The notes under the pieces: model-generated
Told to the model about the DNA's origin: nothing
What the model saw: the letters and a program-made list of their open reading frames with translations, nothing else
Database searches by the model: none
Translations under genes and position numbers: made by a program
DNA from: Margaritifera margaritifera
Lineage: Eukaryota > Mollusca > Bivalvia > Unionida > Margaritiferidae
DNA length: 64,000 nt
Direction: 5' to 3'
Assembly (NCBI GenBank): GCA_029931535.1
Contig: JAQPZY010001490.1
Coordinates: 866,001-930,000 of the forward strand
Part shown: piece after piece, positions 17,740-47,017 of the stretch
Position numbering within the stretch: the first letter of the stretch is position 1
Layout of the letters: each line of letters opens with the position of its first letter

Positions 17740-19146
17740 ATGCAGTTAATTTCTGCTATGTTTGTGGTGAAGTGACTTTTGCATCACAAAAGCGCAGTAT
17801 AACCACTATGGTTAAGAAAGCCTATCACCTTTATTTTGGCTGCAAAATTGGAGATTAGGACAAGAGGTGGGCCCCACACATATGCTGCAACACTTGTGCA
17901 ACAAATCTTAGCCAGTGGTTGAACAGGAAAAGGAAATCTATGCCTTTTGCAGTGCCAATGATTTGGAGAGAGCCAACAGATCATATCACTAATTGTTACT
18001 TCTGCATGGTGCCTCCAGTTGGGAAAGGTGTTTCAAAGAAGAAACCGTAGACTGTGCATTATCCAAACATTCCGTCAGCTATACGCCCAGTACCCGGAGA
18101 AGGACTGCCGGTTCCTGATGCACCAGAATCGTTCTCACTTGAGTCAGACGAGGAAGAGGAAGAGGATGAAACGTCTAGTCCTGAACCATCAATGTCACAT
18201 GACCCATATTTTCTCCCATCCTCCTCCTCTGAACCACACTCATAACACAAGGTGAACTGAATGACCTTGTTAGGGATTTGGAACTACCCAAGAGTAAGGC
18301 AGAGCTGTTGGGCTCCATACTACAGCAGTTGAATCTCCTGGCAGGTGATGTTAGGGTTTCCATGTTCCGTGACCGTCAAAAGGATCTTGTCCCATTCTTC
18401 TTCATGGAAGCTGATGGTGTGATGGCAGCCCTCAACATTGTTCATGATCCACATGAGTGGAGACTGTTCATTGATTCATCGAAGACGAGTCTTAAAGCTG
18501 TTTTGCTGCATAATGGCAGTGTTTTACCATCAATTCCAGTTGGTCATGCAGTCCATATGAAGGAAACCTATGAAAACATGAAACAACTTTTGAGGTGCAT
18601 AAACTATGACCAACATCAGTGATGAAGAACTTTGTCAAGGCCATGGACAAAACACAAGGAGCTTTCAAGTACCTCCGTGGAAACTTTCCAAGGTTAAGTG
18701 AAGCTAAAATAAGGGAGGGTGTCTTTGTTGGTCCTCAGATTAATGAACTTCTTCGAGATGATGCATTTCACCGTACACTGCGTGGCAAGGAAAAGACGGC
18801 ATGGAAAGCCTTACAGTTAGTGGCAAAAATTTTCTCGGAAAAGCAAGGCAGACAACTACAGGGAGTTCGTTGAAAACCTCCTCAAGGCATTCAAAACATT
18901 GGTTGCAACATGTCACTAAAGATACATTTTTTGCACTCTAACCTAGATTTCTTTCCACCGAACTGCGGAACAGTGAGCGACGAACACGGCGAGTGATTTC
19001 ACCAGGACATTGCAACAATGGAGAAATGCTATCAGGGCAAATGGAGCCCATCAATGCTTGCAGACTATTGCTGGACAGTGACAAGAGATGCTCCATTTAA
19101 TGAATACAAGAGACACCCCAAGAAACCCCGAGTAGACACTGAATAA
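17740..19146 (+). pseudogene. Degenerate CACTA-like transposase, internally deleted copy
   Basis: This is a diverged relative of the transposase at 28.3-30.2 kb. The N-terminal FCYVCGE zinc-knuckle block lies near 17750, followed by C..C and WREPTDH..NCYFCM near 17970-18010. An acidic segment at about 18140-18175 comes next. Then come LNDLVRDL...KAELLG at 18255-18310, EWRLFIDSSKTSLKAVLLHNG at 18450-18520 (first Asp) and VPVGHAVHMKE-like text near 18540. At about 18620 the frame jumps directly to LMKNFVKAMDK, so about 110 residues present in the other copy are missing, including its GDFKMV second Asp and CYLC. The C-terminal part (GVFVGPQI near 18720, FHQDIATMEKCYQGKW near 18995-19050) is broken by frameshifts and ends at TAA 19144-19146. 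No terminal inverted repeats were seen, so it is an old, immobile copy. Confidence 0.8.
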
Positions 19147-22045: not shown

Positions 22046-22057
22046 CTAAGTGTCCAT
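22046..22057 (+). CDS. Putative 12-nt micro-exon preceding Ig module 1
   Basis: TCTTTCAG is followed by 12 bases encoding x-Lys-Cys-Pro-x and then by the strong donor GTAAGT. Taken alone this would be too short to call. It matches the end of the 30-nt exon at 31740-31769, which also finishes with a Cys-Pro codon pair plus one base and is followed by GTAAGTATA. Both precede a type-A Ig exon and both are phase 1 at each side. The homologous placement before each module is the main support. Its upstream partner exon is not identified. Confidence 0.45.
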
Positions 22058-22804
22058 GTAAGTATATACTGTCATTAGTTCAAATTTTCTGACCAAGAAT
22101 AGTTTCTTTAAAAAAGATAGATAATACAACGCCATTTCATGATTTGATCTTCACACATCCAGTCAGGGTGCTCATAAATCTGAAATTTGTTTAAGTATTT
22201 GTATGACTGTTGTACTCTTAGATTTATTTATTTATTTATTTATTTGTTTGTTTGTTTCTTTATTTATTTATTATTAGCAATGAAATATTCGTTTTGTTCA
22301 AATCTACTGTTTGTTTTTAACAGAGATCAAACTGAGATAAACGAGACGGAATCACTATATTGTTATGAAATTTTATAAATTCAGACACTGGTTTTTAAAA
22401 CAGCAATCCAAATTAACATTAAATACCATTAGTAGGCATTGTAGCGGAAAATGTACAACGACCCACTAAAACAACCCACTAAAACAAGGAAACACCTCAC
22501 CCATTTAAATGCAAACTTTAAATTAATACTGCATAATATCAAAAGATTCAGTAACCTAAGAAATTATTTTATTTACAAGTCTTTTTATCAGATCGTTTAC
22601 AAATGTTTATAAACGTCAAAATATTCTTCTTAGAGGTAAGCGAATCATACTAGCATGTTACATTTCTACAAAATATTCAATGTGGTAGAGGAAATACAAT
22701 TTCCGAAATGAGGTGTTTCTTTTTTTTTAGCAGGAAGGGGTTACGTAGGGTTAGTATTTCTTGTATAAAATGATGCCACTAGAATAATTTGTTTTCAATT
22801 TTAG
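22058..22804 (+). other. Intron before the first Ig exon
   Basis: AT-rich, with TTTA tetranucleotide runs near 22208-22270. No coding or repeat-family content was recognised. Confidence 0.4.
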
Positions 22805-23146
22805 TCCTGTACTGCAGAGATACAGAGGTCAAAATAGGGGACCGCGCTACAATCATCTGTGAAATCTTCTTCTGTATTGACTCTTTCTCTCTCTCAATAA
22901 AACATTCTGAAGACACTTTATTCAGTAACAATAATATCTCTGGTAATATTTCTCTGAAGTCAGAAAATAAATACATACAAATTTCGGTTGTACTTGGAGG
23001 AACGGCGATAATGTTTACGTTGAATGAGACAAATTGCAACCGACAGGAGAATAACACAATAGCAACTCCCAATGTGAGTAATGGAAACACAGCTTCAAAA
23101 TATTTTTTATTTTCCTTCTTTTTCACAACAATTTCTAAAACGTGTG
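22805..23146 (+). CDS. Ig-like domain exon, type A1, module 1
   Basis: The acceptor TTTTCAATTTTAG precedes a phase-1 exon coding for a divergent Ig-type domain. Early residues include VLYCRDTEVKIGDRATIICE, that is GDxATIxC before the first strand Cys. A later TNCNRQ segment occupies the place of the ILCNQSG segment in the homologous exon at 33769. Several N-x-S/T sites are present. The 3' end is uncertain. A donor GTATAC after 23146 keeps phase 1 and gives a length divisible by three (342 nt). A better donor, GTGAGT at 23074, would break the phase. The C-terminal residues are unusually Phe-rich, so this exon may be decaying. In the proposed architecture it is the membrane-distal Ig domain of a secreted Ig/chitin-binding protein. 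Confidence 0.6.
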
Positions 23147-23477
23147 GTATACACATAAACTAACCGATCTAAGAATTTGTATGATGTCATTGTTACATGT
23201 TATTATATTTTGATCAAAGTTTCATTCTCTACTTGTTTAAAGATATATTCACAGTTGATAAAATTTCCAACATATACATTTTCTAAATATCTTTCGTACA
23301 CTAAGTATCAATTTTCCACTTTATAATGATAACATTTTCAGTAAGTGAGAATATTATTCGATGCCATATCTTTTACCTTCATATAGTCACTGTTAGAGTA
23401 AATAACCTCGCGTTTTAGAACAACTAACTCATTCATATGATCTTTTGTCGGAAGAAAAAAGAATTATTATATTTTAG

Positions 23478-23789
23478 TTCCTCCCGAAAGACCTACGGTC
23501 AAGTTGCCACAATCAATCGTGGCTTATACAGAAGCTACCGTAACCTGCTCTGGAGAACGAGGAGTTCCACAGCAGAATATGTACATAGAAGTGATGTTCA
23601 ATAGAGGCAACTTTTCAAAGTATGATAAAACAACTTTAACAACAAATCGTCAGAACTGCAGTAAGATGGATACTCTGGTGATGACTTTCCTTGTCGGAGA
23701 CATGTGGGATGATGCTCGAATTCGGTGTGTTATAGGTGACTACAGCACATCAAGACTGGAGTCAGACGTGCATGAAATCAAGACGATAG
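23478..23789 (+). CDS. Ig-like domain exon, type B1, module 1
   Basis: A 312-nt exon, phase 1 at both ends, between acceptor TATATTTTAG and a GTTCCG donor. It starts with a Pro-rich PPERPTVKLP segment. It then has the type-B signature shared by all four B exons here: a VTCSGERGVP block (first Cys, then G-x-x-G-x-P), a middle NC, and a RIRCVIGD block with the second strand Cys before two to three further strands. There are two or more N-glycosylation sequons. The reading frame is open throughout. This is the best preserved exon of module 1. The donor is weak (GTTCCG), and an in-frame read-through meets a stop at 23819-23821. Confidence 0.75.
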
Positions 23790-25309
23790 GTTCCGGTATT
23801 GTATTTTTGTTTAAAGTTTAGCCTTCTTATATGATTTGCCTTGTGTTCCTATGATGTCAGATCTTAGCATGAAACATAAATTGTGTAGTGGTTGAGAAGC
23901 CACATGTGCACTAATAAAAACATAATACATTCCTCACAGGTGCCTGCACATTGGCTCTGTATTCAGTTCAGCCCAGAATCTGAAAAAATCATCAAATGTG
24001 AGTTGTCACGTTACCTAGGTTTTCATGGATAAATAATTTATTGCAGATATCACGTAATAAAACCGTCGTTTCTTATGTATAGAGACTTTCTCTGCCCTTA
24101 TCATTTATTTTTGGTGCGACCCGGAAAACAATAAGTATATGAACAATCCAGGATATCAATACCATATAAAAAAATCCAGTGTTGATACATGAATATGGCT
24201 ACATTCATGAACCTCGTCCAACAATTCTGCGCACGCATATTAACGTAAGAATTTATGCTAATGACAATTTGCATGCCATTTTCCTTGTTTCCCTGTTTTT
24301 GTTCTGTCAGGTTACCAAGCCCTCATGGTGAAAGCTTTAAAAGTTGACAGCAAGAGTCACATGCGACGCCAATACAATTATTTAAGACAAAGGTTTTATT
24401 TTTCTTTCTTAGTGCTATAATTAGTATTGTTGTTATCGTCTACCTCTATTAATGATGAAAATGACGATTATTATTATTATTATTATTATTTTTCACTTCT
24501 TCAAGAATCAGGGTCCATTTAATCTTTATTATTTTCGTCAGTTAGACTTCAGTTCAGCTTTTATGATAATTTAGATTTAGCAAGTTTAGACAAAAATATG
24601 TTACTGTCTGCATTGAGATCATGTATTACATATTTAACGGTGATTAGATCAAACGCCAGCTAAAGGAAAATGTTGTATATCCCACCTAAAAACTTTTGCT
24701 TTTAAGTTACGTCAAGCCTCCTAGCTGAATTATTCAGATAGGCATGTTCAACGCTCGATCTTGTTACAAAAAAATGTTTGCGCATTGCTTTGTAATCATT
24801 GTGAAGTTTTAAGTATATACTATTTTTGCTATAATGTCATGTGACTCAATACTTCATCACCGCGTCACGTTCAGTGTTATCCATTTACAGACAACGTTTT
24901 ATCGTTGCTATGATGCGATCTTATATGCCATCTCAAGATAAAAATATATAGACGCAACTTTAAGCATTTACGACTTATGCATTCAAAATCAAATGTGTGA
25001 ACTTGATAACAGACTATTTATTTTTGATTATTTTTATATATAAGTGTTATAGAATCATAAATAAACTAGTGCTTGATGGGGTCAAGAGTTATTATTTTTT
25101 GCTGTAAATATCGACAGTCTCTAAATTTAAAATGATGTTGTCGACTGTATCAAACTGTCAGTTACAATGAAAGATTGAGGGAAGAAAAACTTGAACAAAA
25201 TATTTGTTTAAAATATTGGTGTCAGTGAGGACCTTTTTTGCCAAGTTCACCAGCATTTTCACTCCTTAAAATAGCATCTATCTTAACTTTTAATTTCTAT
25301 CGGTGTCAG
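23790..25309 (+). other. Intron between Ig exons B1 and A2
   Basis: AT-rich non-coding sequence with a short (ATT)n run near 24470-24490. No further exon or transposon protein was recognised. Confidence 0.5.
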
Positions 25310-25623
25310 TTTTCCTTCAACTGAATTTTCTGGGTTGATGAATGATACGGTGGAGATAAATTGCACACTTAGGGGAATTTTCAACGGAGACACCATCCTC
25401 ATTTCGAGATCAAAAGGCATTTGGGGAGAGGAAACATTGTCCATCATGACATTTGGCAACGCAACCAAATATAATCTAACAGGCATACAGATCAGTTCAA
25501 CTGATTTATCAGTGAATGACACGATAGTTCACATAATTATCAATTCCTTCCAGTGTCACGATGGTGGAACATACTACTGTAAATCAGGAAACAGAACAGC
25601 AACCACGTTATTAGAAGTATTGA
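25310..25623 (+). CDS. Ig-like domain exon, type A2, module 1
   Basis: The open frame carries the classic Ig V/I-set ending: an INC first Cys near 25356 and a QCHDGGTYYC second Cys near 25550-25580 (the D-x-G-x-Y-x-C motif). It starts with an FPSTEFSG segment like the FVPPSSLG of the module-2 counterpart. It ends with a strong phase-1 donor A|GTAAGT. The start is odd. With acceptor GGTGTCAG the exon is 314 nt and begins in phase 2, whereas all neighbours are phase 1. One extra T in the TTTT run just after the acceptor would restore phase 1. That points to a one-base indel or a consensus error. Multiple N-x-S/T sequons occur. Confidence 0.78.
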
Positions 25624-26556
25624 GTAAGTAGACATTACATAAGACATAGGGAGTGTGTGGATTATTAAGAGCGATTATGGTAGGTTATTATTGATACATT
25701 GAAATCGATATTTCTTGTATTTGGGGAATACTAAATAATCGGAATGATCAGAAGGGTTAGTCTTTTAATGTGCAAATAAAGCTAAGGCTATTAAGCTTTA
25801 AAAATCTCTAGAATTGAAGTACGACTTTTTCTTGTTTGCAAGAAATAACAAAACCGTAAATTTCGTTACAGTCTTAAAATTCCGAATGATACATGTATCA
25901 CCGTTTGGAAGCTTTAGAAGCGTATATTTCAACTGCATATTATGTTACATCTTGTGTAACTTATTGATTGCATAGTATGTGTAAAAATATACAGAACGTG
26001 TCAATACTAGCTCGAAACGGCAATACAATGCCATTCACATAAGTATCGGTCTTCACAATTTTGAGAATGTCAATGTTTTCTTACACAATTTATGATGGAA
26101 CCATATTCAATTAAATATACTGCTTGCCATAACAAATAGATTTATTGGCAAAGACCAATATAAGCACACTACTAATGCTGAAAATATCGATACTACTAAT
26201 ACTTTTCTTAATTCTTCTCCACCTCCTCCTTTTACGTTTATTATTATCATTATTATCGTACATACATTGATCAAGATAGATATTATATTAGTCTATTATT
26301 TTCTATTATGTTTATATCTATTATTATTATTATTATTATTATTCTATTATTTTCAGTATACCTTAAAATTATTATTATTATTTAGTACTCAGCTAACTTC
26401 CTCCTGCCTTCTAATGAAAATCTAAATATATATTATCGTCATTGCAACTATTCAGGTCTACGTTGATATCTTCGATTTACAAAAGGGGCACATTTCAAGA
26501 TTGTTGTCTTTTGAATTGGCGCAGAGGTTTTTAACGGGTATTATTACTTGACACAG
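25624..26556 (+). other. Intron between Ig exons A2 and B2
   Basis: Non-coding, with short (ATT)n runs near 26320-26375. Nothing else was recognised. Confidence 0.5.
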
Positions 26557-26901
26557 GAAAACCAGATACGCCTAAATTAAAACTACCATTGGACGTAATA
26601 AGTGGTGGATATAATCAAAGAGGCGATCCCTTCGTCTGTGAGGGAAACGTGGGCTATCCTAGAGGATAACTTTTTGTCCTAGTTAACAAGGACGGAGAAT
26701 TTAAGGTGGTTCAACCGTTTTCTTCTACCAGGACCACAGGCAATGTAACTGAGTGTGGGAGAGTAAATAAATTTGAGTTTTACCTCAATATATTTACACC
26801 CGACCTACATAATTCTACTGTACGATGTATTGCAACAAACAATGAGACGTTATCTTATGAATCTGCCCAGTTTGAAGATAAAGTTCTTCTTCTCGTTCCA
26901 G
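26557..26901 (+). pseudogene. Ig-like domain exon, type B2, module 1, with in-frame stop
   Basis: A 345-nt phase-1 exon between acceptor ACACAG and a GTATTT donor, coding for a type-B Ig domain. It has a GKPDTPKLKLP start, FVCEGNVGYP (first Cys and G-x-V-G-Y-P), a middle ECGR and a VRCIAT block. Codon 26667-26669 is TAA at the position occupied by a normal residue in the other three type-B exons, just after the GYP turn. The rest of the exon is intact and keeps the phase. Either this allele is a pseudogene or truncated, or the base is wrong. If real, the protein would end inside the fourth Ig domain and lose the chitin-binding domain encoded at 31.0 kb. Confidence 0.72.
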
Positions 26902-28033
26902 GTATTTTCGTTATAATATACTACTTACTATTCTTACCTGATATTTTCATAATTAGCATGCATTGAACATTTAATTATTTCTACTATGTTTTGTTTCGTT
27001 CAACTGAATATCAAGACATTCCCGTCTGCCCCAAACATTCCGGTTCCTTTCCTTCAGCTGTACTTGCTGCCGGTATGACTTATGCCGCCTAGCATATGTC
27101 TTTGATGCTTCTTAATTGGACAATTGTACAATATTTTTAGTTTCAGAATTTCGCCAACTGACATTTGCTCAGTTTCGTTTTTACCTTATAGCAAATAAGA
27201 TCAAATGAATCGATCACACATTATCTATGGATCCTCTATTCTCCACATTTATAAATCCCACTAGGCCATTCAGATAAGAATGTTAATTTAGCTACGGATT
27301 ATCTTTGTCACAGGCTGTTGGAAATACAATTTTTACGAAGAACAAATAAAAAATAAACAAAGTATTGACTGAGAAGATGAATCAATTATGTTTTCAGTAA
27401 AAACTATAGAAAACAATAGGCTTTTATTTCAGTGAAATCAATAGAATTCCACGATACCGCAATGGTTAAATATAAAATTCTCTTTTAAATAAACTGCATT
27501 GATTTTGTTTTAAATGAGACTTTGAATTTTATTTGCGGCTTTTCAAATATGATCAAATATGTCATGGGGATAAAAGGTACTAAATCATTAAAGCGGTACT
27601 ATAGGTGCACAGTTTATTAAAACAAATTTAAAAATGGCTCACTTGTTTTAGTTAGTTTTTATAGACGATCTTGCATGATTGATTGCTAGATATGAAATTG
27701 ATGAAACGTATTCAGGTATGCAGCTGTCTGTAGCTGCATGGTGGTAAATTGTGCTATTATATGAAAATCACAAATGTATTGTCAAACAAGTCTTCAAGAT
27801 TTAATTCAACCAATAACTGCGTAGATTTTGAATTTTCTAATCAAGTTTCCAAACGATGTTGCATCAGTATGAAATACTGTATGCGGATACACATCTAAGT
27901 ATGAACCCTTATAAGGATAAATACTTATGAGTAATCTTTATCTCAACATGGCATAAAATTACAACATGAAAAATTGACATGATCATAAGCGTTTGACCTT
28001 GTATGCAAAAACGAAAACAAAAGGATTAAATAA
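26902..28033 (+). other. Intron sequence between Ig exon B2 and the CACTA-like insertion
   Basis: No coding content was recognised. The transposon has inserted at a TAA trinucleotide at 28031-28033. Confidence 0.5.
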
Positions 28034-28180
28034 CATCGTGTAACAAAAAAAAATTTTTCCTGGGTAGTAAGTGTTATTTCCTAATTGCTTATGCCTCAAA
28101 AATATTGCAAATGGCTATTATTCCCCACAAACTTTGCTTTTGTGACCAGGAGAGTGATATTTTGAAATGTACCTATTTTC
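28034..28180 (+). repeat. Left terminal inverted repeat of the CACTA-like element
   Basis: From TGGGTAGTAAGTGTTATTTC at 28061 to about 28180 it matches the reverse complement of 30321-30440 almost base for base. The outermost 27 bp include the end CATCGTGTAACA and an A9T5 run absent from the right arm. Confidence 0.88.
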
Positions 28181-28318
28181 CAGAACATTCCAGATAGATT
28201 CAGTGCTGAGTAAACTTGGAGTAACTTCTAGAACTTTCCAGTAATATAAATTGTAGTATCAATACAGGGGCTTTAAGCGCATCAGTTCAGTTTAGTTCCA
28301 TATCTGCATTTTTCTGAG

Positions 28319-30203
28319 ATGGCATCAAGAGGCTGCAAGCATCCGGCAGACGCATTTTGCTATGTCTGCGGCCAATTTATCAAGTCAAGAGCCAAAAAGT
28401 ACTCCGTGGAAGCATCTGCTAAGATGTGTGAGGCCTACAAGGCATATTTCGGCATGCCTGTCGGGGATCAAGACAGACCCTGGGCACCTAATTTCACCTG
28501 CTAGCACTGCAAAAAAAAAAAAAAAAACTCTGGAAGGTAAGATGGACAATTGTTGCTCAGAATGTTATGTTATAAAATTTGTTAAAATTTTTAAAATTGT
28601 AAAAGTTTTTAATTTTAAAATGTTTTACAATTTTCAATGTTATTGAAAAAATATATCATATATGAAAAATGTTGCGAGAATCTTGTACACATTAGTCATG
28701 GGTGAAATAAATGTATTTTTGTATTATGGTACAAAGGGGAAAAGAGAGCCATGAAGATCGCTATCCCAAGAATTTGGCGGGAACCCACTGACCACTCAAG
28801 CAACTGCTACTTCTGCATGGTGGACCCTTCCAAACGTCGGACTGGCAAAAATGCACCTATCTCGTATCTGCACCTTCCTTCATCCATCGCCCCGGTGCCA
28901 CACTGCCATGAGCTCCCTGTACCCACTCTTCCGGAGAGAGAGCAGCCGTCTTTAGAAGAGAGCAGCAAGTCAGAGAGCGAGGAAGACGTTGTAGATCCAG
29001 ATGACAATTTCAGAGGTGGAGCTGAGGAGAGAAACCTATACTACCCCAACCAAAAAGACCTCAACGACTTGATTAGAGATCTTGGTCTCACAAACTCCAA
29101 TGCCGAGCTTTTGACGTGTAGGCTCAAGCAGTGGAACTTGTTGGATGAAAGTGTGCAAGTCGCAGATCAGAGAAAGCGTCGCCAACCTTTTTCCAGCTTC
29201 TTCGCCCGTCAAGATGGGCTCTGCTTCTGCCACAATGTGACCAGTCTGTTCGAGGCAATCGGAATCGCCTGTAACCAGAATGAGTGGGCGCCTCTTCATT
29301 GACAGCTCATCCAGGAGCCTCAAAGCCGTGCTGCCCCATAATGGTAACAAGTACCCGTCTCTTCCCCTGGCTCACTCGGTGCACCTCAAAGAGGATTGCA
29401 ACAGCATCAAGACCTTGCTGGACGCCTTGAAGTATGATGAGTACGGCTGGGAGGTCATAGGAGACTTCAAAATGGTGGCATTCCTGGTGGGTCTCCAAGG
29501 CGGTTTTACCACGTTTCCCTGCTATCTTTGCCTTTGGGACAGCAGGGACACCAAGGCGCACTACCACAGGCGGGACTGGCCACAGCGGACCGAGTTCTCT
29601 GTGGGGAGGAACAACGTCAAGTGGGAGCAACTGGTGGACCCCCGGAAGGTCCTGATGCCACCACTGCACATCAAATTGGGCCTTATGAAACAATTTGTCA
29701 GAGCTTTAGATAAGGAGTCGGCAGCCTTCAAGTACCTTCAAGACTTCTTCCCTAAGCTGTCTGAGGCAAAGGTCAAAACCGGTGTCTTCGTCGGACCACA
29801 GATAAAGAAGATCCTGGAGTGCAATGAATTCCCCAAGAAGCACACTAGTAAGGAGAAAGCGGCTTGGAACAGCTTTGTCGCAGTGGTTCAGGGCTTCCTG
29901 GGCAATCACAACGCCGAAAACTATGTGGAGCTGGTTGAGACTCTGGTGAAGAACTACGGCACAATGGGCTGTAGGATGTCCCTCAAAGTCCATATCCTTG
30001 ATGCTCATCTTGGTAAATTCAAGGAGAACATGAGAGCGTACTCAGAGGAGCAAGTCGAGCGCTTCCACCAGGATATACTGGACTTTGAACGCCGCTACCA
30101 AGGACAGTATAACGAGAATATGATGGGAGACTACATTTGGGGGCTGATTCGTGAAAGTGATTTACAGTATAATCGTAAATCTCGAAAAACTACTCAGTTC
30201 TAA
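28319..30203 (+). pseudogene. Transposase-like protein of the CACTA-like element (broken)
   Basis: The start ATG at 28319 opens a zinc-knuckle N-terminus with FCYVCGQ and, later, C-x-x-C at 28499-28510. That second knuckle is interrupted by TAG 28502-28504, followed by an A17 run. A probable 200-nt intron (GTAAGA at 28537, AAG acceptor at 28736) joins to KIAIPRIWREPTDH..NCYFCM. An acidic linker and LNDLIRDLGL follow. One extra G at GGG 29284-29286 shifts the frame inside EWRLFIDSS. The main downstream frame (29280-30203) has LFIDSSSRSLKAVLPHNG (Asp 8), GDFKMV (Asp 62), CYLC (81-84), PPLHIKLGLMK (His 130) and a conserved Glu-Arg-Phe-His-Gln-Asp (260-265). That spacing fits an RNase H-like D-D-E nuclease with a zinc-binding insert. 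The catalytic reading is inference. The family is widespread in invertebrates and is usually left unnamed. Confidence 0.78.
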
Positions 30204-30320
30204 ATCTTTTGTAGTCATTTTTGTATTACTTTAGTATAAATACATGGTAATTTGGATTCATATGTTGTTTTTTCTGACTTCATGAGAACGAAAAGACACA
30301 AATTCGCCCGTTTTCTCATT

Positions 30321-30454
30321 GGAAATAGGTAAATTTCAAAATATTACTGTCCTGGTCACAACAGTAAAGTTTGTGGGGAATAATAGCCATTTTCTATACT
30401 TTTGAGGCATAAGCAATTAGGAAATAACACTTACTACCCAATTGTTACATAGTG
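30321..30454 (-). repeat. Right terminal inverted repeat of the CACTA-like element
   Basis: It is the reverse complement of the left arm, ending in TAGTG at 30454 (CACTA when read inward) and followed by the target trinucleotide TAA. Confidence 0.88.
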
Positions 30455-30841
30455 TAATCGATGCATTTCACAGATACAAACTGATGTGAGACATCCAATA
30501 AACACTCCAGACATATTTTGCGATAAAGACTTGTAAACATAGGACGTTTGCAACCTTGATAGAAGCAGACAAGCTATTTTACATCTTAGATTAGATCTCT
30601 TGTTAATAAGCTTGATTATTAATAATATGGGCCTTGAGATCAGAACTGTGAATGAAACAAAATAATTGTCTCTAGATTATTGACTTTCATCTGTAGACGT
30701 TTGCTATTTCCAGGACTGTAAAATGCTGAGAGGAAAATGGTGTTCTTTTTAATGGAGATATTTATGTTTTCTATATGAAATTTGGATTGTGTTATAATTA
30801 CTTTTTTGCATTATTATGATGATACATGTATATAAATTCTC

Positions 30842-30880
<39 letters not shown>

Positions 30881-31024
30881 TCTGCTTTTTCTATTTTTTT
30901 CTTCTTTCTTGTGACTTATTTTGTAACTGTCATGTGTTAAATATTTCTGCGGTATAAATCACCCATACAGTTTGCATAATTGCTTGTTAATGAAAACTGG
31001 CATCATCACTTTTCTATTATGTAG
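30455..31024 (+). other. Intron remainder before the chitin-binding exon, with (AT)n tract
   Basis: Non-coding. It contains about 17 TA dinucleotides at 30846-30879 and ends with the acceptor TTCTATTATGTAG. Confidence 0.55.
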
Positions 31025-31213
31025 AAAATAAATGCTATGGTGTGACGGAAGGCTTGCACTTGCCTCACCCATATCCATTCTATGATTGCGGGAAGTATTT
31101 ATATTGCTCTTGGAATCGAACATTTGTGAGAGATGGTGGATGTAAAGATGGAGAATGTTATTACACTGATATGAATAAATGTGAGAAAGAGAGAACAACA
31201 ACTACAACTAAAC
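31025..31213 (+). CDS. Chitin-binding (CBM14/peritrophin-A-like) domain exon, module 1
   Basis: A 189-nt exon, phase 1 at both ends, with acceptor ATTATGTAG and strong donor GTAAGT. It codes for ENKCYGVTEG, LPHPYPFYDCGKYLYC, then Cys residues at spacings C-17-C-5-C-11-C-4-C-7-C. A K-E-R-T5-K-R linker follows. The P-H-P-x...D-C-x-K-Y-x-x-C core and six spaced cysteines are the signature of peritrophin-type chitin-binding domains. The Thr-rich end looks like an O-glycosylated spacer. Its counterpart in module 2 is at 39765-39938. In a secreted Ig protein this domain would bind chitin or a related glycan on a microbe or a mucus/cuticle surface. That role is known for VCBPs and is inferred here. 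Confidence 0.85.
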
Positions 31214-31739
31214 GTAAGTGCAAAATGTATTTACTAACATGACATTCTTTGATTATAACAAAATAAAAAAGCAAAAATATTTCGCATTATAAGATCAGGT
31301 GAACTGAAGATTATTAAACATCAGCTAACTATTAAAGTGAGCCTCATGCAAACTTGAAACAAAATTAATTCCAAGGTAAATTTTGATTTTCTTATCACAA
31401 ATAGTTTATCTAAGGGAATTTAGAGCATGTGACCATTAGTTACTAACAGGGAATTACATAGATACGCTGATGTATTGTGTAATCATGTAACTTTGTATGC
31501 ATACGTTCACATAAGTATTGGGACAATGTGTATAATTTAAAGACGAAACTTACATGTGGACATTTTGCACTGCTAGGTTTTTTTTTCTTTTTTTGCTCCT
31601 TTAATTTTATATGCTTGGCCATGTTTGTACCCAAATAAATAGCATACACTTTTATTTGTTTTAAATTCCAATTTACAATGAATAGATTCTTAGATATCAT
31701 ACGGAAGGAAGGTATACGATTCCTTTCTTGTCTTTTCAG
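31214..31739 (+). other. Intron between chitin-binding exon and Thr-rich micro-exon
   Basis: AT-rich with T-runs near 31578-31595. It ends in a polypyrimidine tract and the acceptor TCTTTTCAG. No coding content beyond chance open frames. Confidence 0.5.
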
Positions 31740-31769
31740 CAACAACGACGACTCAAGCAACATGCCCAT
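31740..31769 (+). CDS. Thr-rich 30-nt micro-exon ending in Cys-Pro
   Basis: A polypyrimidine tract and acceptor TCTTTTCAG precede 30 bases encoding x-T-T-T-T-Q-A-T-C-P-x, followed by donor GTAAGT. Phase is 1 at both ends, so it can be spliced between any two exons of this gene. It continues the Thr-rich spacer that ends the chitin-binding exon. It parallels the 12-nt exon at 22046, which precedes module 1. It suggests that module 1 and module 2 may be joined in one transcript. Confidence 0.6.
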
Positions 31770-33481
31770 GTAAGTATAACACTGACTGGGATTAAATTGT
31801 CGCCCATAGACCTCTTTAGCTGCCACGTTTCTGAGGACCAACACTTTAATTGTATAAGCAAGATTATACGAGGTGAATAAATAAGTATATGCACGTAACC
31901 AAAATGATAAACATGTACATGATTGCACAGATCGTATATGTAATGACTAAGTACACTAAGAATGAAACCTACCACCTTCTCTCCACATATGACGCAAACT
32001 CCAGTGATATTAAATCAGTTGCCCTGTCCTTTTGCACAGACAAGCAGGTGCACTACCAGCTGCACGGATGTTTTATTTTTTTAAAGCTTTCATTTTTTAA
32101 ACTGACCTTCACAGAGTTGTACAATATAATTTAATATAATAGTTCTGACGAAATTATTTGAAATCTGTACCATGAACATAAATGTATGTCATATTGATCC
32201 ATATTGTATTCCATGTTTCAATAACTTTGGTTTCATCATATATATAAACGCAAATAGTATGCCCTATACATGGTAAAATTGTAAACTCAGGTGCATTATT
32301 GTGCGTACTACATATATTATAAAGAGATGACAAGCTTGTCTACATTTAATGCTTCAACACATTGGCAATGGTGTTAATAGCGCTGCTAATGTTAAACTTA
32401 CCGAAATAATACATATAGAGGGTATGGTATACTTAACCGTATCAGATATGTCGCGCATTGTTATTATTTTGTTTAAAATTCGCGTTGAGCCCAGTTTTTA
32501 ATGCCAAAATTATGACATATGTGTTCATTCTACTTAAAGCATGTTACTTCATCGTCCACAATGGTCACCGTGGTACATTATATTTACTTTGGTGTATCTC
32601 TGCGTCAGGCGTTGTTCCTCAATAAATGGAGGAAAAAAAATGAGACATGAAGAGAATGCTTTTTTTTAAAGAGGATTCGCAGGATCTTGAATCTCACCAA
32701 AGACCAATAAGTAGTATATCTTTCAGGACAATATTTTCAGTGTTCCATAGGTGTATAATGTGCACACGAGAGGTCTTGGCTAGAGCACTAATCCAATACA
32801 ACTAAATTTGTTATCCAATAGTTCAATCTGAATCTCAATACGAACATTATTGTTTGCAGAACATAGAAAGTATTGTTCTTCATGTCAAAGTTGCAGGACC
32901 ATCGATATGAAGGATTGATGAAGAAAAGAACTTCACATATCACCCACCAGATTTAATTCGATAGTTTTTATTCGAGCTTCCAATGCGCTGATAACCAGAC
33001 TTTCTCCTGGACAACATGTCATCCATTACGTAATAACACCTAGCCGACTAAGAGATCGTCTGTTGCATAATTGTTGGACACCGAGACAGTTTGGACTATA
33101 AAACATATATAACATTATATATTCAATACCTTCATAAAGTGATAAAATTTTCAAAGCTTCCATTTTACAGAAGATGTTACACTAATGAGTAGGAGTGGTT
33201 ATATCGGTTCTGGCAATTCTTTCGTTGCAAACAATGGTCAGGAAAGATATTCAGATGGAAGTAATTTAAAGTCCTTAATATCAACATATGCAAAGCACAA
33301 CAGTTAATAATTGACAAGCTGCAATAAGTTTAATGATCTCTATAAATCGATGTCACTTTATAGGTTTTGTTTGATCGATATTTGTAATATTGGTTTCAAT
33401 GGAATTAGTGATGTGCAGTGGCTTTGCATTTCTCAGTAACTGTCTTGGAAAAAAAATATCAAATAGATTCTCAGGCTTTAA
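31770..33481 (+). other. Intron or intergenic sequence between the two Ig modules
   Basis: About 1.7 kb of AT-rich sequence without a recognised exon, promoter or poly-A-bounded gene end. It cannot be decided from sequence whether this is an intron of one gene or the spacer between two genes. Confidence 0.45.
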
Positions 33482-33699
33482 TTATAAACGTTTGAATAAT
33501 AATCAGATATTGTACAATCATGTATTTATAACAGGTTATATGAAATCTTGTTCGAATAAGAATACGCTTTCTGCATTTATAATTGACAAATTATAACCGT
33601 TTGAATAATAATCAGATATTGTACAATCATGTATTTATAACAGGTTATATGAAATCTTGTTCGAATAAGAATACGCTTTCTGCATTTATAATTGACAAG
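33482..33699. repeat. 109-bp tandem duplication
   Basis: 33482-33590 is repeated at 33591-33699 with essentially one substitution (TAAACG versus TAACCG). It lies 70 bp upstream of the acceptor of the first Ig exon of module 2. Near-identity shows it is recent. Confidence 0.95.
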
Positions 33700-33768
33700 T
33701 CTCACCAACTGTTGATAAATGCGTGGAAAAATAGTTGTAGTTATGTTTCAATTATTTTTTTATTACAG

Positions 33769-34074
33769 CTATAACTTGTTTGGGTGCAGAAGCTTTTATT
33801 AATAGTGCTGACACAATAAATTGCGAAATGATACTTTGCGGAGATGATTTTGATTTGACTATTGACTTAGAATCGAAGGTACAATGCAGAGAAACAATAC
33901 ATGGTAATCGTAGTTCTCCATTTCTCAGCAACGCACGTCTCAACCTTGTTGTGCAAGATAAATCTGCCAACTTGAACATTGTGTTTGCAAATATTTTGTG
34001 CAACCAATCCGGAGCGTACAACATCAGTATTTACAGAGGAAATGTATCCAGTGTGGCAACATTACGAATTAGAG
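33769..34074 (+). CDS. Ig-like domain exon, type A1, module 2
   Basis: A 306-nt exon, phase 1 at both ends, with acceptor TTTTTTATTACAG and donor GTAACT. It codes for a divergent Ig domain: ITCLGAEAF, DTINCEMILC, a Gly/Asn-rich middle and NIVFANILCNQSGAYNIS near the end. It finishes VATLRIR before the splice. It aligns with the exon at 22805 in order and in the unusual early Cys (ITC / LYC). Several N-x-S/T sequons occur. The frame is open across the whole exon. Confidence 0.8.
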
Positions 34075-34729
34075 GTAACTTAAATCAGTCGTTAGTGTTT
34101 TATCTGTGATTATTTATTTTGATTTTCTAAATTAAATGTATACGTAAATTTTTAAGCTGTATAATTTGAACGCACACAGTACTTTTTCATTTTTTTACTT
34201 AAAATAAAATGCAGAGGTACAAACTTTTACAAAAGTATGTAGATATAAATTCATAAAAAACGGCGTTCACGTTAAAATAGTGTATACAATAGCATTGAAT
34301 ATATCTCAATATGAGAGAGAACGAGGATCATAAATTTCAATGTTCTACCTCATTCATTTTGTTCTTTTTATCCCTTGTAATTCAGCGGGTCTATACATAG
34401 TAATCCAGACACCACCCATTCCGTTCTCTTTATGTTACAAATTGCACACTTGTTTAGGTGCATCTAAAAATATCAATGCAAAAACATAAGTAAACAACCT
34501 ACTACAATCTCATTGCATCGATGAGCCGCACACGATGTTGAGCTCAAACATAATGGAAATACCTTGATTTACACATTATAGCTTTAAATTAGTATCAATC
34601 CATCTTTATATTTAGATGTTACAATGTAGTACCTAAACATATAGATAGATGGATACACAATTATTTCTGATACATTGGATGTATAAAAATAAGCCCATTT
34701 TTATAGCATGCATTGCCGCCTTCTTTCAG
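34075..34729 (+). other. Intron between Ig exons A1 and B1 of module 2
   Basis: Non-coding AT-rich sequence with nothing recognised. Confidence 0.5.
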
Positions 34730-35056
34730 TTAATCCTGAGAAACCAAGTATCACAGCACCGCCCAAGCTTTACAAGGATCAGAAGGCTATTTTGTCCTGT
34801 ATCGGTCAAATGGGAATTCCAAATGCATCGATGTTTTGGCAATTAATGTTACCCGGTGGCAACTTTCAGAGCTACAGTGTACGAGGTTCGACAGACATGT
34901 TAAAAATCGATTGTAGTGTTATGGGGAACTGGACAATTGAAGTCTATCCGGAGGAAAATTGGAACGGTGGCGGTATTAGATGTGTCACCCAAACACAAGG
35001 GAATCGCTCAATCGAAATATATTCTGATGCGATAGGAATTACCATAGAAGAACCAG
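34730..35056 (+). CDS. Ig-like domain exon, type B1, module 2
   Basis: A 327-nt phase-1/phase-1 exon with acceptor CCTTCTTTCAG and donor GTCTGT. It begins NPEKPSITAPP and has AILSCIGQMGIP (first Cys and G-x-x-G-x-P), MFWQLMLPGGNF (core Trp), a middle DCSV and GGIRCVTQ with the second Cys. It is fully open. The type-B arrangement C-x-G-x-x-G-x-P ... (D/E/N)C ... (I/V)RC is the same as at 23478, 26557 and 37977. Four or so N-glycosylation sites are present. Confidence 0.83.
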
Positions 35057-35442
35057 GTCTGTAGAAGAAACATACGGTACAAATTGTTGTATGTGTATGC
35101 TAACATGGAAATAACTGGACGCCTATAAGTGGTCGAAATTACATGGAATGTAACATCCAAATTTTGAAATATTGTATGTGGGCGATTAGTTTACTGCATT
35201 ACTTTTATTCTCATAAATATATTTAGTTTCTCTTCATAACACTGAAATTCCACATGTTAATTGATTCTTCAAAGGAAGTACTGACTACTTTGTTTTAGTT
35301 CCATAATAGAATTCTTGTGCAAGAAAAATGCATACAATTTATTTTGTTTCCTTCTGGATAATTATCCATATGTACAAAGTGATGAATACAATTATGGTCT
35401 ATTGGAGCTTCTATCAAGCAACATGATTTCAAATATATTTCT

Positions 35443-35655
35443 GAAATTTTGCTAGATCAAATATAGCGATCGTTGACAATTTGCTGTGTACAAATGTTTG
35501 TCGTAGCACGGGAGAAGAGTTTGAACCCAAGTACAATGTCCGAGTGTACAAAATCTTTCGTGACTGTTCTGGCATGCGTCTGTACACATCAAGCCGTGTA
35601 TGGTTGCCATTTCTACATGACCAGTTATTTGGCACATTCATTATATACCAAAACA
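35443..35655 (+). other. Unexplained open stretch within the module-2 intron
   Basis: About 70 codons are open between a TGA and a TAG, containing EEFEPKYNVRVYKIFRDC and SSRVWLPFLHDQLFGTF. The composition looks coding, but the - strand of the same segment is also open for 75 codons. No homologous stretch was seen in module 1 between its B1 and A2 exons. It may be a fragment of a transposon gene or an extra exon. I do not recognise it. Confidence 0.25.
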
Positions 35656-36019
35656 CCTAGAAAATGGAGTTTTAGTTCTTGCTTATAAAGTCTGTAATCA
35701 AATTGGTGTCTGGATAAATTTGTTCAAAAGAAATATCATGCGTTAGGCCAGACCAGATCATGTTCAAGATTCTTCAAGACAAAAAAATTATAAAATCTTC
35801 CTGACATAACAAAATATGTTGGCTAGTTTGATTTCTTGTTGTTTGGTTTGCTTTTGAAGAATTTTGGATGTTCTATAGCTGCACTAGTGTTAACATTCCT
35901 TGCAGTTAGGTTACAGTAAGATACGTCTGGCATGTAAATGCAATTGTAACATGAACTTCTAGTTATGTTTTCCCAATTTTCCCTACGTCATGATGTATTT
36001 ATTTTGTATCCATCAACAG

Positions 36020-36340
36020 ATATATTTTTTGTTCCACCGTCATCGTTGGGCTACATTGGATCACCTCACAGTATAACATGCATTGCCAGAGATATGACAA
36101 ATATTTCCAGTGTCAAAATTGAAAGGCAAACCGCCTCGGGTTTCCGAGAAGTTGCTTCCATGAATGTGAACGAAGCAGGGACAACTAACTTTATCGGAAT
36201 AAGAATAAGGAACACAAGTAGCATAAATTCAACAGATGCAACTATTCATGTGGATTTTGATAACCTGACCTGCGCAGACAAAGGAGAGTACTTTTGTACC
36301 ATAGGTGCATTCTCTTCACATGGAAACCTCAGCGTCTTAC
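36020..36340 (+). CDS. Ig-like domain exon, type A2, module 2
   Basis: A 321-nt phase-1/phase-1 exon with acceptor CATCAACAG and donor GTATGC. It codes for FVPPSSLGYIG, SITCIARD with the first Cys, and LTCADKGEYFC with the Ig D-x-G-x-Y-x-C motif, ending NLSVLR. It is the direct counterpart of the exon at 25310, and the comparison shows where that one lost a base. It is fully open and rich in N-x-S/T sequons. Confidence 0.85.
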
Positions 36341-37976
36341 GTATGCATGAGATGATAATGTGCAAATCGCTGGACCCTGGATCACCAAGCCTGCTCATTA
36401 GCAAAGTATTTTCCATAATTAAAGTTGTTTTCTTCTTTTTGTCGAAATACTGCCTTTTTATTAGAGAGAACTTTTTTCGATAAATAATGAAAAGGTCTCG
36501 ACAACTGAACTACGAAATATTAACTTTATAACAGTCGAAATTGTGTAATGTTATAGAGTAAACACAGAGAGAAAAAATATGTTTGTGTTAACAGTAGTGT
36601 GCAATTTTGACTCCGAGTTAAACATGCTTTGTGATGCAGGTGTAATTTGCAAGTACATGTACTTGCTATTTCAAGTAAAGCTTTGAGTGCGATATGTAAG
36701 CTGTAACTTGAACTCAAATTTTAAAAAAAAATCATTTTTGGCTAAAATGTGATTTTAGATATGGGAAGTATAGCAACTGGGAAATTGAGGCTATGGTGTC
36801 GACCTTTTTGTGTCGTCATACATCTGTACACGATGGGCAGTCAAATGGGTGCGAATTATCAAATAGTGTATACAAAAACAGTTTATGACCATAACATTAT
36901 ATATACAGTATATATATATATATATAATATATATAATATATATATATATATAATATATAATATATATATATAGATATATAGATATATATATATATATTGC
37001 GCATGATCTCAACAAAGTATAATACTTCGGCATTACACATATGCACATACTTAGTTTATTTTAGTAACATGACGCATAATAATTTTCCATTACCATAATT
37101 CTGCATTATGTAAAAATAAACTTTACAGAAGACGATTTCCCAGACTGTATGGTTTTTATCCCCACGGTATCTTTTTTAATTGTCGGGGATACTGTCATAT
37201 CCTCTGTCTCTCCGTCAATTCATCTTCCGTTACCACAACTCCTCTCCTAAACCGCTGCGTGGAACTTGGCAAACCATTTAAGTGTTGTATGTATGGTCGC
37301 CGTCTGCAAGAGGCGTATCATTGTTGAGCCTCGGGCTTGGGGTTCCTGGGAGGGGGTCAAAGGTAAAAGGTAGCAAACTTTAAGTAACAATGCCATTATG
37401 AAATACTTTCTCGCAAAGCTTCATATCCTCAGTCATAACAGAAAAACGCATCATATATTTGATTAATTATATTATGAGCCCTGGGTCACTGTCTTGCGGC
37501 TGAAGATGAATATCGGGGAGAGATAAAGGGGTGGGTGAGGTGGAAAAGGCAGTGAAAATTGTGGTGATTTGTGATGGTGAGCGATGGCCCTTGTTCTAGT
37601 ACTTTTGCTTCAACATTTATACGCCATTTTGTTATAACGAATCAAAAACAAAGAATAAGTATACATTATGTAAGTTCTTGAGTTAATTTATCCACAAGGT
37701 GGACATAAATTGGTAGTGGCCACAGTTTGAAAAATATGAGTGATCGTCAGAACATATCGGATTCAGAATATTTCCACCCTTTCTTTACAAGTTTATCCGT
37801 TTTTACCCGCCGCTTTCTCTGTGATGTATCATTTTCTTTTGTCAGCAAATGTATGAATGCCTTTGTATTGCATTAGAAAAGAATTTTTATAAAGCAGTGT
37901 GATGGTAAATATTGGAGCTGACCAAACACTAGCGTTTACTATATTTGTTTATTTGTTCTTTTTATTTTGTTTACAG
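36341..37976 (+). other. Intron with (TA)n tract and possible dispersed repeat
   Basis: It contains an imperfect (TA)n palindromic tract at about 36904-36998. At about 37160-37420 it has a CTGTCTCTCCGTCAATTC / GGAACTTGGCAAACCATTTA type sequence reminiscent of interspersed repeats. It ends in TTTATTTTGTTTACAG, the acceptor of the next exon. Confidence 0.5.
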
Positions 37977-38314
37977 GAAAGCCCAAAGTACCTCAAATGA
38001 TAACTTTCCCGACAAGTGGGATATTAGAAAATACAGCCTCAGAAACAATCAACTGTACTGGGGAAGTAGGATATCCTGCCAGGAAAATTGTGTTTGAAAC
38101 AAATAAAGGTGGCAACAACACCTTTACTGCTGCTCCATTTAGCTTAGCTACAGTTCAGAAGGAAGGGGAATGCGGCACCACATATTTATACTCTCCTATA
38201 CATTTAATTAGGACTGGAATAGCACGGTTATTCGATGTAAAATAGACACTGGTGACGTATTCGGTGACAATATAACATCGCTTTACGTTGACAAGAAAGT
38301 TTTAATCATACCAG
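37977..38314 (+). pseudogene. Ig-like domain exon, type B2, module 2, with a one-base frameshift
   Basis: Acceptor TTTGTTTACAG and a GTATCG donor bound a type-B Ig exon. It has KPKVPQMITFP, TINCTGEVGYP (first Cys, G-x-V-G-Y-P), a middle ECGTTY, then W-N-S-T-V-I-R-C-K-I in another frame and a VLIIP end. The exon is 338 nt, not divisible by three. The reading frame shifts between about 38200 and 38214, and the original frame stops at 38243-38245. Both ends still agree with phase 1 when the shift is allowed. So the exon is recently broken or contains a consensus error. It is the counterpart of the exon at 26557, which is broken differently. Confidence 0.75.
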
Positions 38315-39028
38315 GTATCGAAAGCAAATTTATTTTCTAGATTCGTCTTTTTTCCCGCCTTTTCGAAAAAGGGTGTTAAATGTAGCTAGAGCATCTCCGT
38401 CCATATAACTTTACCGTGCAACTTGAGCAAAAAAGATGAAATTTAATACACTTACGCATCATTGCTTAAAGATGAGTTACATGTTTTATTCGTTGTCCTT
38501 TCGTTAAGGTCAAGTTCGCAATTTTACGTGTTCAAATTGTTCCGTCATCACAGTTTTCTGTACTTTACAACTTTAAAGACATGATATCAATTTCTGAAAC
38601 TTGGAACATTTGTATCATTGCTAAAACATGTGTGGCAGAATATATCTGGGGTCCTATCGTCATAATCAGGTCAAAGATCAGCATGAAGTTATTCTGTCTA
38701 CCCATCTGTCTATAAAGCTTTTTCATTATACTTGGTACAAACCGAATGAACCGATTAAGTTGGGTACTTTTATATAGCATTGTTTATCATAGCAATAAAA
38801 AGAAATCTGCCAGCGTATTGAACTTGCACAGGCTTGTTTAACTTGACAAGTAAAACATTTCTCTGAGGAACACTAGAATATAAGAAGAAGAAAAAAAAAC
38901 TTTTCTTCAAGGTAAAAGTCATAAATGTCATTTAAGGGACGGTACAATTTACATTTTTATTTAAGGAACCTTTCTGAAAGATGTACAGATTATTTACAGA
39001 TATTTTATTGTATGTATGTGTATGTATG

Positions 39029-39107
<79 letters not shown>

Positions 39108-39764
39108 GACACGTCAATAAGAAATAATTCAGTCAAAGTAGTACTCATTGTTAGTTGGAGCTAATAAATTCTTCGAAGCTGGAAAGACAGTCCCAAATAA
39201 ACTTGGCATGGGTATCGAGCTGACGCTATAATGAAATCTCTTGTCAGAGTAACATAAAACACTGAACGGGAACTGTTAACGTCTAAGACTTAAACATGTG
39301 CATATAATAGCGAAATCAGGTAGACCTGGTATAATAGATGTAACACCAGATTCACCATGTTTTCTGGTGAAATACTTGGCAGAACAACCCACACTTTTAC
39401 ATCGAATGTTCCCCACTGAAATTACTTGGTAAAACAAATATGATTTGACGTTTTATATATCGCAATGAATCTGTACGGCGGAACTGTTCCGCAGTGAAAC
39501 AACTTGGCGCAATCGTTTTCTCTTCAAAAATACTTGGAAAAACTATCTTCGCTCTGAACTTTGTATAATTACTAAACCTAAACTCCTCTGCTTATTAAGT
39601 GCAACCACCAGCTTTCGGGAAACTGGTTATAATAAATAAATTGTACCGACAATATTCCTTGTAATTAATAGATACATAGAAACTATGCAATTTACATAAC
39701 ATATTATACACGTGTTTAACTTATATCAAACGTCTGTGATAGTTCTAGCAAATTTCATTTACAG
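38315..39764 (+). other. Intron with (TA)n tract before chitin-binding exon 2
   Basis: It contains TATG repeats followed by about 35 TA dinucleotides at 39035-39104. It ends CAAATTTCATTTACAG. No exon was recognised. Confidence 0.55.
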
Positions 39765-39938
39765 GGGATATATGCCAAACTTCCAATGCCATATATGTGC
39801 CACATCCATATGCCTGCAGGAAATTTGTATGGTGCGTAACAAATCAGATATACTTGCAAAGCTGTCCAGTAGGCACATGTCATTCGACTCTCCCCGATAA
39901 TATAACAGCTTGTGATGGAACCTGCATTGGCTGCTTCG
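39765..39938 (+). CDS. Chitin-binding (CBM14/peritrophin-A-like) domain exon, module 2
   Basis: A 174-nt phase-1/phase-1 exon with acceptor TTTCATTTACAG and donor GTGAGT. It codes for GDICQTSN, VPHPYACRKFVWC, and cysteines spaced C-13-C-5-C-9-C-4-C-10-C, then DGTCIGCF. The P-H-P-Y..C-x-K-F-x-x-C core matches the module-1 domain at 31025 and the peritrophin-A pattern. The frame is open throughout. It overlaps a shorter chance frame (39712-39900) that has no meaning. Unlike module 1, no Thr-rich tail is encoded, and the exon ends in a Cys-rich segment that continues into an unidentified exon. Confidence 0.85.
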
Positions 39939-41061: not shown

Positions 41062-42071
41062 CATACATTGAATGTCATTCTTCTTGCAGATTCATTTTAA
41101 CGACCGGTGTCCAGTGCACTGAACAGACCATGGACAAAGCTTCTTCACTTCTTCCCAGGAATTTCGGCATGGCTTCATTTGGGATGTCCATTTCTTCTTG
41201 TTAAGCATGTGTTTTATATGAAAACCATATGCTGCAATTTATCAATGTACATTATGAATCATTTACAAGTATATAATATCATGCAACATGTAAGAAATGA
41301 GTTTTGTTGCCAGAAATATTATATTTTATACGTTATTGTTCTTTTCTTTTTTGCATTTACGCGATTTGTAAATTGCGCGGTGCTATCGTCTAATATGAAA
41401 GGTGGAAAATGATTCACGACCGTTAAATTTACATAAAATAATGTTTTTAATTAGTAATGAATATACTATACAAAGCTATATCTTGCACTATTAATTTTGA
41501 GGTAAATATTAGATGGAGAGATCACTCATCGTCATTTGGTACTTTGGGATGCATATTTGAGTTCGCTAGAAAGTTGCTTTACTTTATTAAATGTCACTCT
41601 TCGAATAGATTTTGAATAGGGACGAAATTAATATTATAAGACTGTGATAAATATAAAACGTGTATTAATATTAATTATTCCACACAATTCTAGTAATTAT
41701 CTCATACAATTCCAGAATCTGCCTCCTTTTAATTTCCTGGCTAATGAGAAAAAAACATTAAACTATACACTACCGGGTTTAATCTTTATGAATCCATATA
41801 TACTGACGGGACTTTCCGATGAGTGGGCATCATTATGATATTATTGTGCATCACATTGATATTTTTGTCAGTAATCTGTAAGAATGCTATATTCCCCTCA
41901 ATATTAGATTTGCTAACATCTCCATCTTTGCAAACTTACTGATAAATCCATGTATGTATCCTTCACATATCTGAATATTGTAAATTGGAAACCATATATA
42001 TATCTGAAAAGTTTTACTTACTAAGGTACACACTACAAACTTAATACTAACACCACGAGCTGTTTACACAG
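40980..42071. other. Non-coding sequence with (TA)n tract
   Basis: About 16 TA dinucleotides lie at 41025-41056. Short open stretches at 41107-41412 and 41644-41838 have no recognisable content. Confidence 0.5.
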
Positions 42072-46873: not shown

Positions 46874-47017
46874 GAATTTCTTTAAAGAATATTAGAGATA
46901 TTTCAGTTATTTTTGAAATTCATATTGATTTTGTCTTGGAATTTTTTTTTGGTTTTGTCTTTGGCAAAGATTTTTAAATAGAGAAATTTTTTTGTGTGAA
47001 ACCAACAAGCATTTACA

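Follow-up and report, generated by a model that had tools for sequence, protein, structure and literature searches.

The 64,000-nucleotide stretch analysed here (the window; C741:866,001-930,000, on contig C741 of the 2.45 Gb Margaritifera margaritifera assembly) contains two collinear modules of five exons each, in which V-type and C2-type immunoglobulin (Ig) domains alternate and are followed by a CBM14-type chitin-binding domain. The predicted layout is (V-C2-V-C2-CBM14)x2, with one domain per phase-1 exon. The locus is a copy of a multigene mussel family, other genes of which have fewer Ig or more CBM14 domains. The locus itself does not look like a working example of this architecture: on a second contig, C1421, there is an intact gene, of which the window most likely holds a decaying duplicate. 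In the reading that we prefer and consider fairly likely, the window holds a decaying copy from a family of chitin-anchored Ig-superfamily proteins that would tether or opsonise microbes much as the VCBPs of chordates do.

Both modules lie on the plus strand, between 22.0 and 41.1 kb of the window, and have the exon order Ig-A1, Ig-B1, Ig-A2, Ig-B2, CBM14. Module 1 is preceded by a 12-nt mini-exon (22046..22057), which the C1421 paralogue also has, letter for letter and flanked by splice sites, and consists of A1 (V-like, 22805..23077), B1 (C2-type, open, 23478..23789), A2 (25303..25623), B2 (C2-type, 26557..26901) and a CBM14 exon that is open and ends in a threonine-rich tail (31025..31213). 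Module 2 consists of A1 (V-like, 33769..34074), B1 (C2-type, 34730..35056), A2 (36020..36340), B2 (C2-type, 37977..38314) and CBM14 (39765..39938). The two are joined in frame: the threonine-rich tail of the first CBM14 exon is followed by a threonine-rich linker mini-exon of 30 nt (31740..31769) and then by A1 of module 2. Similar linker exons were seen in two paralogues (L042 and C1421:792,955-792,984). Because a short proposed terminal coding exon (Asp-Ser-Phe-stop, with TAA as the stop; 41090..41100) comes after the last CBM14 exon, the CBM14 domain of the window gene is probably C-terminal, as in VCBPs. This terminal exon and its cttgcag acceptor are identical in the paralogue.

For all five module 1 exons the top match is the same-position exon of module 2, and these matches have z-scores of 5.5 to 21.6 in both directions when compared to 200 shuffles. 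The first-pass annotation had described five phase-1 exons occurring twice in the same order within 22046..39938. The order holds and the modules lie where it had put them; phase 1 at both ends was found for only 8 of the 10 domain exons, and the proposed terminal exon lies beyond the end of that interval. The exon starts of the two modules are 10,964 (A1), 11,252 (B1), 10,710 (A2) and 11,420 (B2) bases apart, in agreement with the 10.7-11.4 kb given earlier for the Ig exons. The smaller offset of the CBM14 pair, 8,740 bases, had been put at 8.7 kb and attributed to a transposon in module 1, and it does fit the 2.4-kb element described below. No DNA similarity was detected between the modules at E 1e-3 on the plus strand, and the module duplication is therefore old. 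Directly before A1 of module 2 there is also a near-perfect 109-nt tandem duplication (99%; 33,480-33,698).

Domain identities were assigned by Pfam searches (cut-offs of 22.1 bits for CBM14, 26 for V-set and 21 for C2-set_2), by PDB searches and by comparison to the nearest relative found, hypothetical protein ACJMK2_018270 of the unionid freshwater mussel Sinanodonta woodiana (P0001). The cysteine-rich exons proposed to be CBM14 were supported as such, with a score of 30.1 bits for module 2 (39,767-39,937), above the cut-off, and one of 20.5 bits for module 1 (31,027-31,212), just below it. The proposed Ig exons were recovered in part: the A2 exons match V-set at 22.9 bits (module 1) and 23.8 bits (module 2), both under the cut-off, and the A1, B1 and B2 exons of the window, searched singly, matched no Ig family in Pfam. 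We name the B-type exons C2-type because P0001 matches C2-set_2 at 33.2 bits; on single B-type exons of C1421, C295 and C147 the C2-set_2 scores stay under the cut-off. Among relatives, scores above the cut-offs were obtained for V-set (27.4 and 32.6 bits), C2-set_2 (the 33.2 bits of P0001) and CBM14 (46.0, 35.2, 26.1, 30.2, 24.4 and 26.3 bits). Profiles of the A-type and B-type exons, small ones of 3 and 4 sequences, do not match each other (hhalign probability 0.1%).

When the PDB was searched with a module profile of three rows, two of them joined exon translations, its A2 part retrieved antibody V domains (best E 1.2e-7) and its A1-B1 part JAM-A (E 6e-7). P0001 alone retrieved JAM over both A2-B2 (8e-5) and A1-B1 (1.4e-4), and A2 of module 2 alone retrieved antibody V domains (best 7e-6, to a chain in which V domains are repeated). 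For the CBM14 exon of module 2, the search gave a polyphenol-binding protein of three domains (2.6e-5) and, as a weak match, chitotriosidase through its chitin-binding domain (0.05). In our reading of the alignments, the F-strand cysteine is absent from A1 of module 2 and from A1 of P0001. As judged by these matches, the A-type exons are V-type and the B-type exons C2-type Ig domains. A match of A1 to an RNA polymerase family (10.5 bits, cut-off 27) was judged to be due to chance.

By blastn, positions 20,544-41,329 of the window (plus strand) align with the minus strand of C1421 at about 775.2-801.6 kb across exons and introns alike, in 27 blocks that are 67-88% identical; a further block of 42 bases, at 16.3 kb, was not counted as part of the duplicate. 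On the strength of this alignment, the window copy is a segmental duplicate of the C1421 gene. That gene has 13 exons (ten domain, two mini and one terminal). Joined at phase-1 junctions, they yield a single 997-residue open frame that contains 42 cysteines and 34 N-glycosylation sequons. No lesions were found in its ten domain exons, and the stops counted within the C1421 genome matches of the gene lie outside its exons. Its domain exons were named from similarity to the window exons, the last CBM14 exon from 61% identity to the window's last CBM14 exon. Due to weak donors at the B1 exons and the linker, and a GC donor at the first CBM14 exon, the exon joins of the C1421 gene need confirmation by transcripts. 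Upstream of it, on the same strand, are A, B and CBM14 exons in L043, and A, B and CBM14 exons plus another A1 in L044, which may be part of the 997-residue gene or of a neighbouring one. In the part of the window ahead of module 1 and in the 30 kb that precede the window, no A or B match was found at E 0.05, while C1421 does have upstream modules, and the window copy therefore seems to have been duplicated without its 5' modules.

In the window copy, four of the ten domain exons are broken: A1, A2 and B2 in module 1, and B2 in module 2. Relative to the paralogue, the 3' end of A1 of module 1 is scrambled and its donor lost. At A2 of module 1 the acceptor AG of the paralogue is CG in the window, and the AG that follows (25,309) has the wrong phase. 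The B2 exon of module 1 has an in-frame TAA at 26,667, and frameshift-aware alignment of B2 of module 2 gave a frameshift at about 38,190 to 38,197 and a TAG at 38,209. Any single one of these lesions may be an assembly error. The copy is now probably non-functional. In addition, a 2.4-kb transposon (28061..30440, no strand assigned) sits in the module 1 intron that separates B2 from CBM14; its 118-nt inverted ends (28,061-28,178 and 30,323-30,440) are 93% complementary. By blastn, this transposon is absent from the matching place of the C1421 paralogue. The transposon has overlapping frames of 198 and 320 amino acids and matched no Pfam family above cut-off, the weak match being to GRAS (19.1 bits, cut-off 27). 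Frames at 18,233-18,873 of the window resemble its protein by eye, have no DNA similarity to it by blastn, and are possibly an older relative.

The Sinanodonta protein was the only relative retrieved from protein databases, profile search included, in a search that is weak in that it needs shared five-residue words. It was found at 55% identity (E 5e-165) and has the same order, A1-B1-A2-B2-CBM14, so that the four Ig domains of alternating types joined to CBM14, which the first-pass annotation had ascribed to a non-chordate genome, do recur in a bivalve. P0001 is an unnamed member of the family with one module where the window has two; it is 56% identical to module 2 and 29% identical to module 1, and its B2 is open. 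Judging from its sequence, the P0001 model has its start within A1 and apparently runs on past the last donor. A two-module query retrieved no larger relative from the protein database, under length limits that also exclude P0001.

In the genome, P0001 has at least 85 matches at E 0.01 (from the best 90 of 130 candidates scored), the best of them on C1421. Nine contigs are among the matches listed, and sequence was read on five of these (C741, C1421, C295, C147 and C201), the remainder being C1458, C1301, C1339 and C670. CBM14 exons lie downstream of Ig exons on all five. V-type, C2-type and CBM14 exons running in one direction were found on C741, on C1421 (L036 with L039, L037, L038, L041, L042, L043 and L044), on C295 and on C147; L035 has V-C2-V-C2, with no CBM14 in the 10 kb read. 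A second two-module copy is located at about C1421:517-530 kb, its first A1 and B1 lying outside the stretch read and its last CBM14 not found in the 10 kb read. Short V-C2-CBM14 copies occur on C1421 near 330-335 and 356-361 kb. C295 and C147 harbor diverged V-C2-CBM14-CBM14 genes with CBM14 above cut-off, and the C201 stretch read has a C2 exon followed by two CBM14-like exons, one of them above cut-off.

Further matches on C1421, near 371-377 and 387-392 kb, have near-equal scores, and the V exon at 392.5 kb contains a TAA. Within C1421:356-392 kb, three V-C2-CBM14 units that closely resemble each other follow at intervals of about 15 kb, the V exon of one of them bearing this TAA; they may be a recent tandem expansion or an assembly duplication. 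Searched against the genome, the window's last CBM14 exon has 8 matches (on C741, C1421, C295 and C147) and the C2-type exon of C295 has 10 (on C295, C1421, C670, C1339 and C677). C2-set_2 itself is a poor detector of the family, since only one of its 35 genome matches (C295:405 kb) lies on a family contig. CBM14 has at least 150 matches genome-wide (the best 150 of 563 candidates were scored, and all 150 matched). CBM14 exon arrays with equal or near-equal scores and a regular spacing of about 2 and 4 kb at C838:1,600-1,642 kb and C290:4,573-4,599 kb suggest recently amplified chitin-binding genes.

Ratios of nonsynonymous to synonymous substitution (dN/dS), estimated by a simple counting method over 33-116 codons with saturated dS values (nan or >3) left out, are below 0.6 in most paralogue comparisons. 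Module 2 of the window compared to its C1421 counterpart gave 0.38 for A1, 0.21 for B1 and 0.28 for A2, and for module 1 of the window the values are 0.52 for B1, 0.15 and 0.42 for parts of B2, and 0.12 for CBM14. The two short copies compared to each other gave 0.19 (A2), 0.41 (B2) and 0.20 (CBM14), and the C1421 module-1 copies compared to each other gave 0.24 (A2) and 0.21 (B2). Among A1, B1 and A2 of the three two-module copies compared, all from one genome, A1 has the highest ratios (0.38-0.51). These values suggest that the V-C2-CBM14 family has been coding and constrained, and a recent loss of function in the window copy would be compatible with them.

Similar to the mussel family, VCBPs have V-type Ig domains joined to a C-terminal CBM14-type chitin-binding domain, and their genes are clustered, with duplicates and pseudogenes (PMC2632668). 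Unlike VCBPs, which have two tandem V domains, the mussel family alternates V-type and C2-type domains, has two or more modules on a threonine-rich linker, and belongs to a bivalve genome. The exons of amphioxus VCBPs all use splicing frame 0, with V domains split over 2-3 exons, whereas the mussel family has one phase-1 exon per domain (PMC2632668). The VCBP-like architecture proposed in the first-pass annotation thus holds for the parts list and fails for the V-C2 pairing and the phase-1 exon plan: as far as its predicted structure goes, the family is VCBP-like in parts and is not a VCBP by exon plan, domain order or lineage. The V-type-then-C2-type arrangement is shared, per the JAM and C2-set_2 matches, with receptors of the JAM, nectin and CD80 type, which sit in the membrane and lack a chitin-binding domain. 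In molluscs, FREPs and other Ig-lectin proteins likewise join Ig domains to a carbohydrate-binding module, and FREPs differ in carrying fibrinogen domains in place of CBM14 (PMC5877582).

In Ciona, VCBPs attach to the chitin fibrils of gut mucus, and through their V domains they bind bacteria and promote bacterial uptake (PMC4757023). Because the mussel proteins have the same two parts, recognition domains tethered to chitin would be their most likely mechanism, and by analogy we infer an immune function for them. The proteins would be secreted and glycosylated. Their CBM14 domains, being of a kind that binds chitin, would hold them on the chitin of gut mucus or peritrophic matrix, of the mantle or shell lining, or of chitinous microbes, and their V domains would bind microbial or self ligands, so that the protein could tether or opsonise microbes as VCBPs do. 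With two modules, a protein would have two anchors and several sites for recognition, and symmetrical phase-1 exons would allow modules to be gained, lost, skipped or duplicated. More tentatively, and as a possibility we would not yet call probable, bivalves may have evolved a VCBP-like system independently of chordates, in which tandemly expanded, germline-diversified (V-C2)n-CBM14 units, strung together in twos or more, would form multivalent chitin-tethered Ig receptors at mucosal or shell surfaces.

Several results weigh against the preferred reading, both as to domain identity and as to function. None of the ten C1421 domain exons reaches a Pfam cut-off singly, and the last CBM14 exon there matches nothing in Pfam. 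In the PDB, B1 of module 2 singly matches only CD276 (E 0.03), and the CBM14 exon of module 1 singly retrieved nothing related. The CBM14 and V-set scores of P0001 (12.1 and 14.7 bits) are likewise under the cut-offs. In module 2 of the window, dN/dS is 0.55 and 2.92 for two parts of B2 (the latter over 34 codons) and 0.67 for CBM14, and in module 1 it is 0.76 for A2, which suggests loosened constraint on these exons while the CBM14 exon of module 1 stays at 0.12. Finally, a crude scan of the window, C1421 and C147 found no convincing signal-peptide exon, the window candidates being of low complexity or far upstream and the single weak ones on C1421 and C147 having poor context; it is for this reason that we can only infer secretion.

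The same domains might instead build structural proteins of the shell, mantle or peritrophic matrix, with Ig domains for adhesion and CBM14 on a chitin scaffold and no immune recognition involved. The many CBM14 matches in the genome (at least 150) and the resemblance of P0001 to the adhesion molecule JAM would both suit such proteins. Nevertheless, the V-type domains of the family, its numerous diverged paralogues in tandem and its narrow distribution in the databases are features more usual in recognition families, and we regard a purely structural role as rather unlikely. Four shell matrix proteins of Pinctada fucata do have Chitin-binding domain 2, while the accessible part of the same source names no Ig-CBM14 protein (PMC4660305). 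We give very little credence to the family being true orthologues of chordate VCBPs, kept since the bilaterian ancestor, given the V-C2 order instead of V-V and the single phase-1 exon per domain as opposed to V domains split in splicing frame 0 (PMC2632668). The protein searches, which gave one mussel protein only, point the same way, weakly in view of the five-residue words they need.

It is also improbable that the window copy is a working gene, its lesions being assembly errors or its broken phase-1 exons being skipped in frame. With A2 skipped in module 1 and B2 in both modules, a 651-residue open frame to the terminal exon would remain, provided that the degenerate A1 end of module 1 is still spliced, and the low dN/dS of the module 1 CBM14 exon would agree with this. 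However, four exons have lesions of different kinds (a scrambled 3' end, a lost acceptor, a nonsense codon, and a frameshift plus nonsense codon) versus none in the ten of the paralogue, neither an upstream module nor a convincing start exon was found, and a transposon has been inserted.

No description of an Ig-CBM14 family in a mollusc was found in the literature searched, whose scope stopped short of subscription papers and supplements, and to that extent the suggestion of an unreported family in the first-pass annotation stands. In the accessible literature so far, the combination of Ig and chitin-binding domains is a protochordate device for dealing with gut microbes. If our reading is true, the mussel family, with the same parts in another domain order and gene structure, would be a convergent case, and it would become testable whether tethering Ig receptors to chitin is a solution of general use to filter feeders whose mucus is rich in chitin. 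Freshwater mussels include many threatened species and some that are farmed for pearls, so that an expanded family of recognition proteins might matter for the diseases of these animals.

Elsewhere in and around the window, no extra A or B modules were found within 30 kb on either side. Open reading frames near 10.3-11.1 kb were considered as Ig-like and rejected, with no Pfam and no profile match, as was a CBM14-like piece at 11,540-11,632 (E 0.0099), which matched nothing in Pfam and was missed by an enlarged profile. Three weaker CBM14-like pieces, two of them in the flanks and one on the window's minus strand (E 0.014 to 0.042), were judged to be chance matches. At 47,000-51,800 the window contains a retroelement of the long terminal repeat type with SCAN, integrase, reverse transcriptase, RNase H and a sub-cut-off zinc knuckle in several frames. 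Its 957-amino-acid frame has the integrase before the reverse transcriptase, the usual Gypsy order being the reverse.

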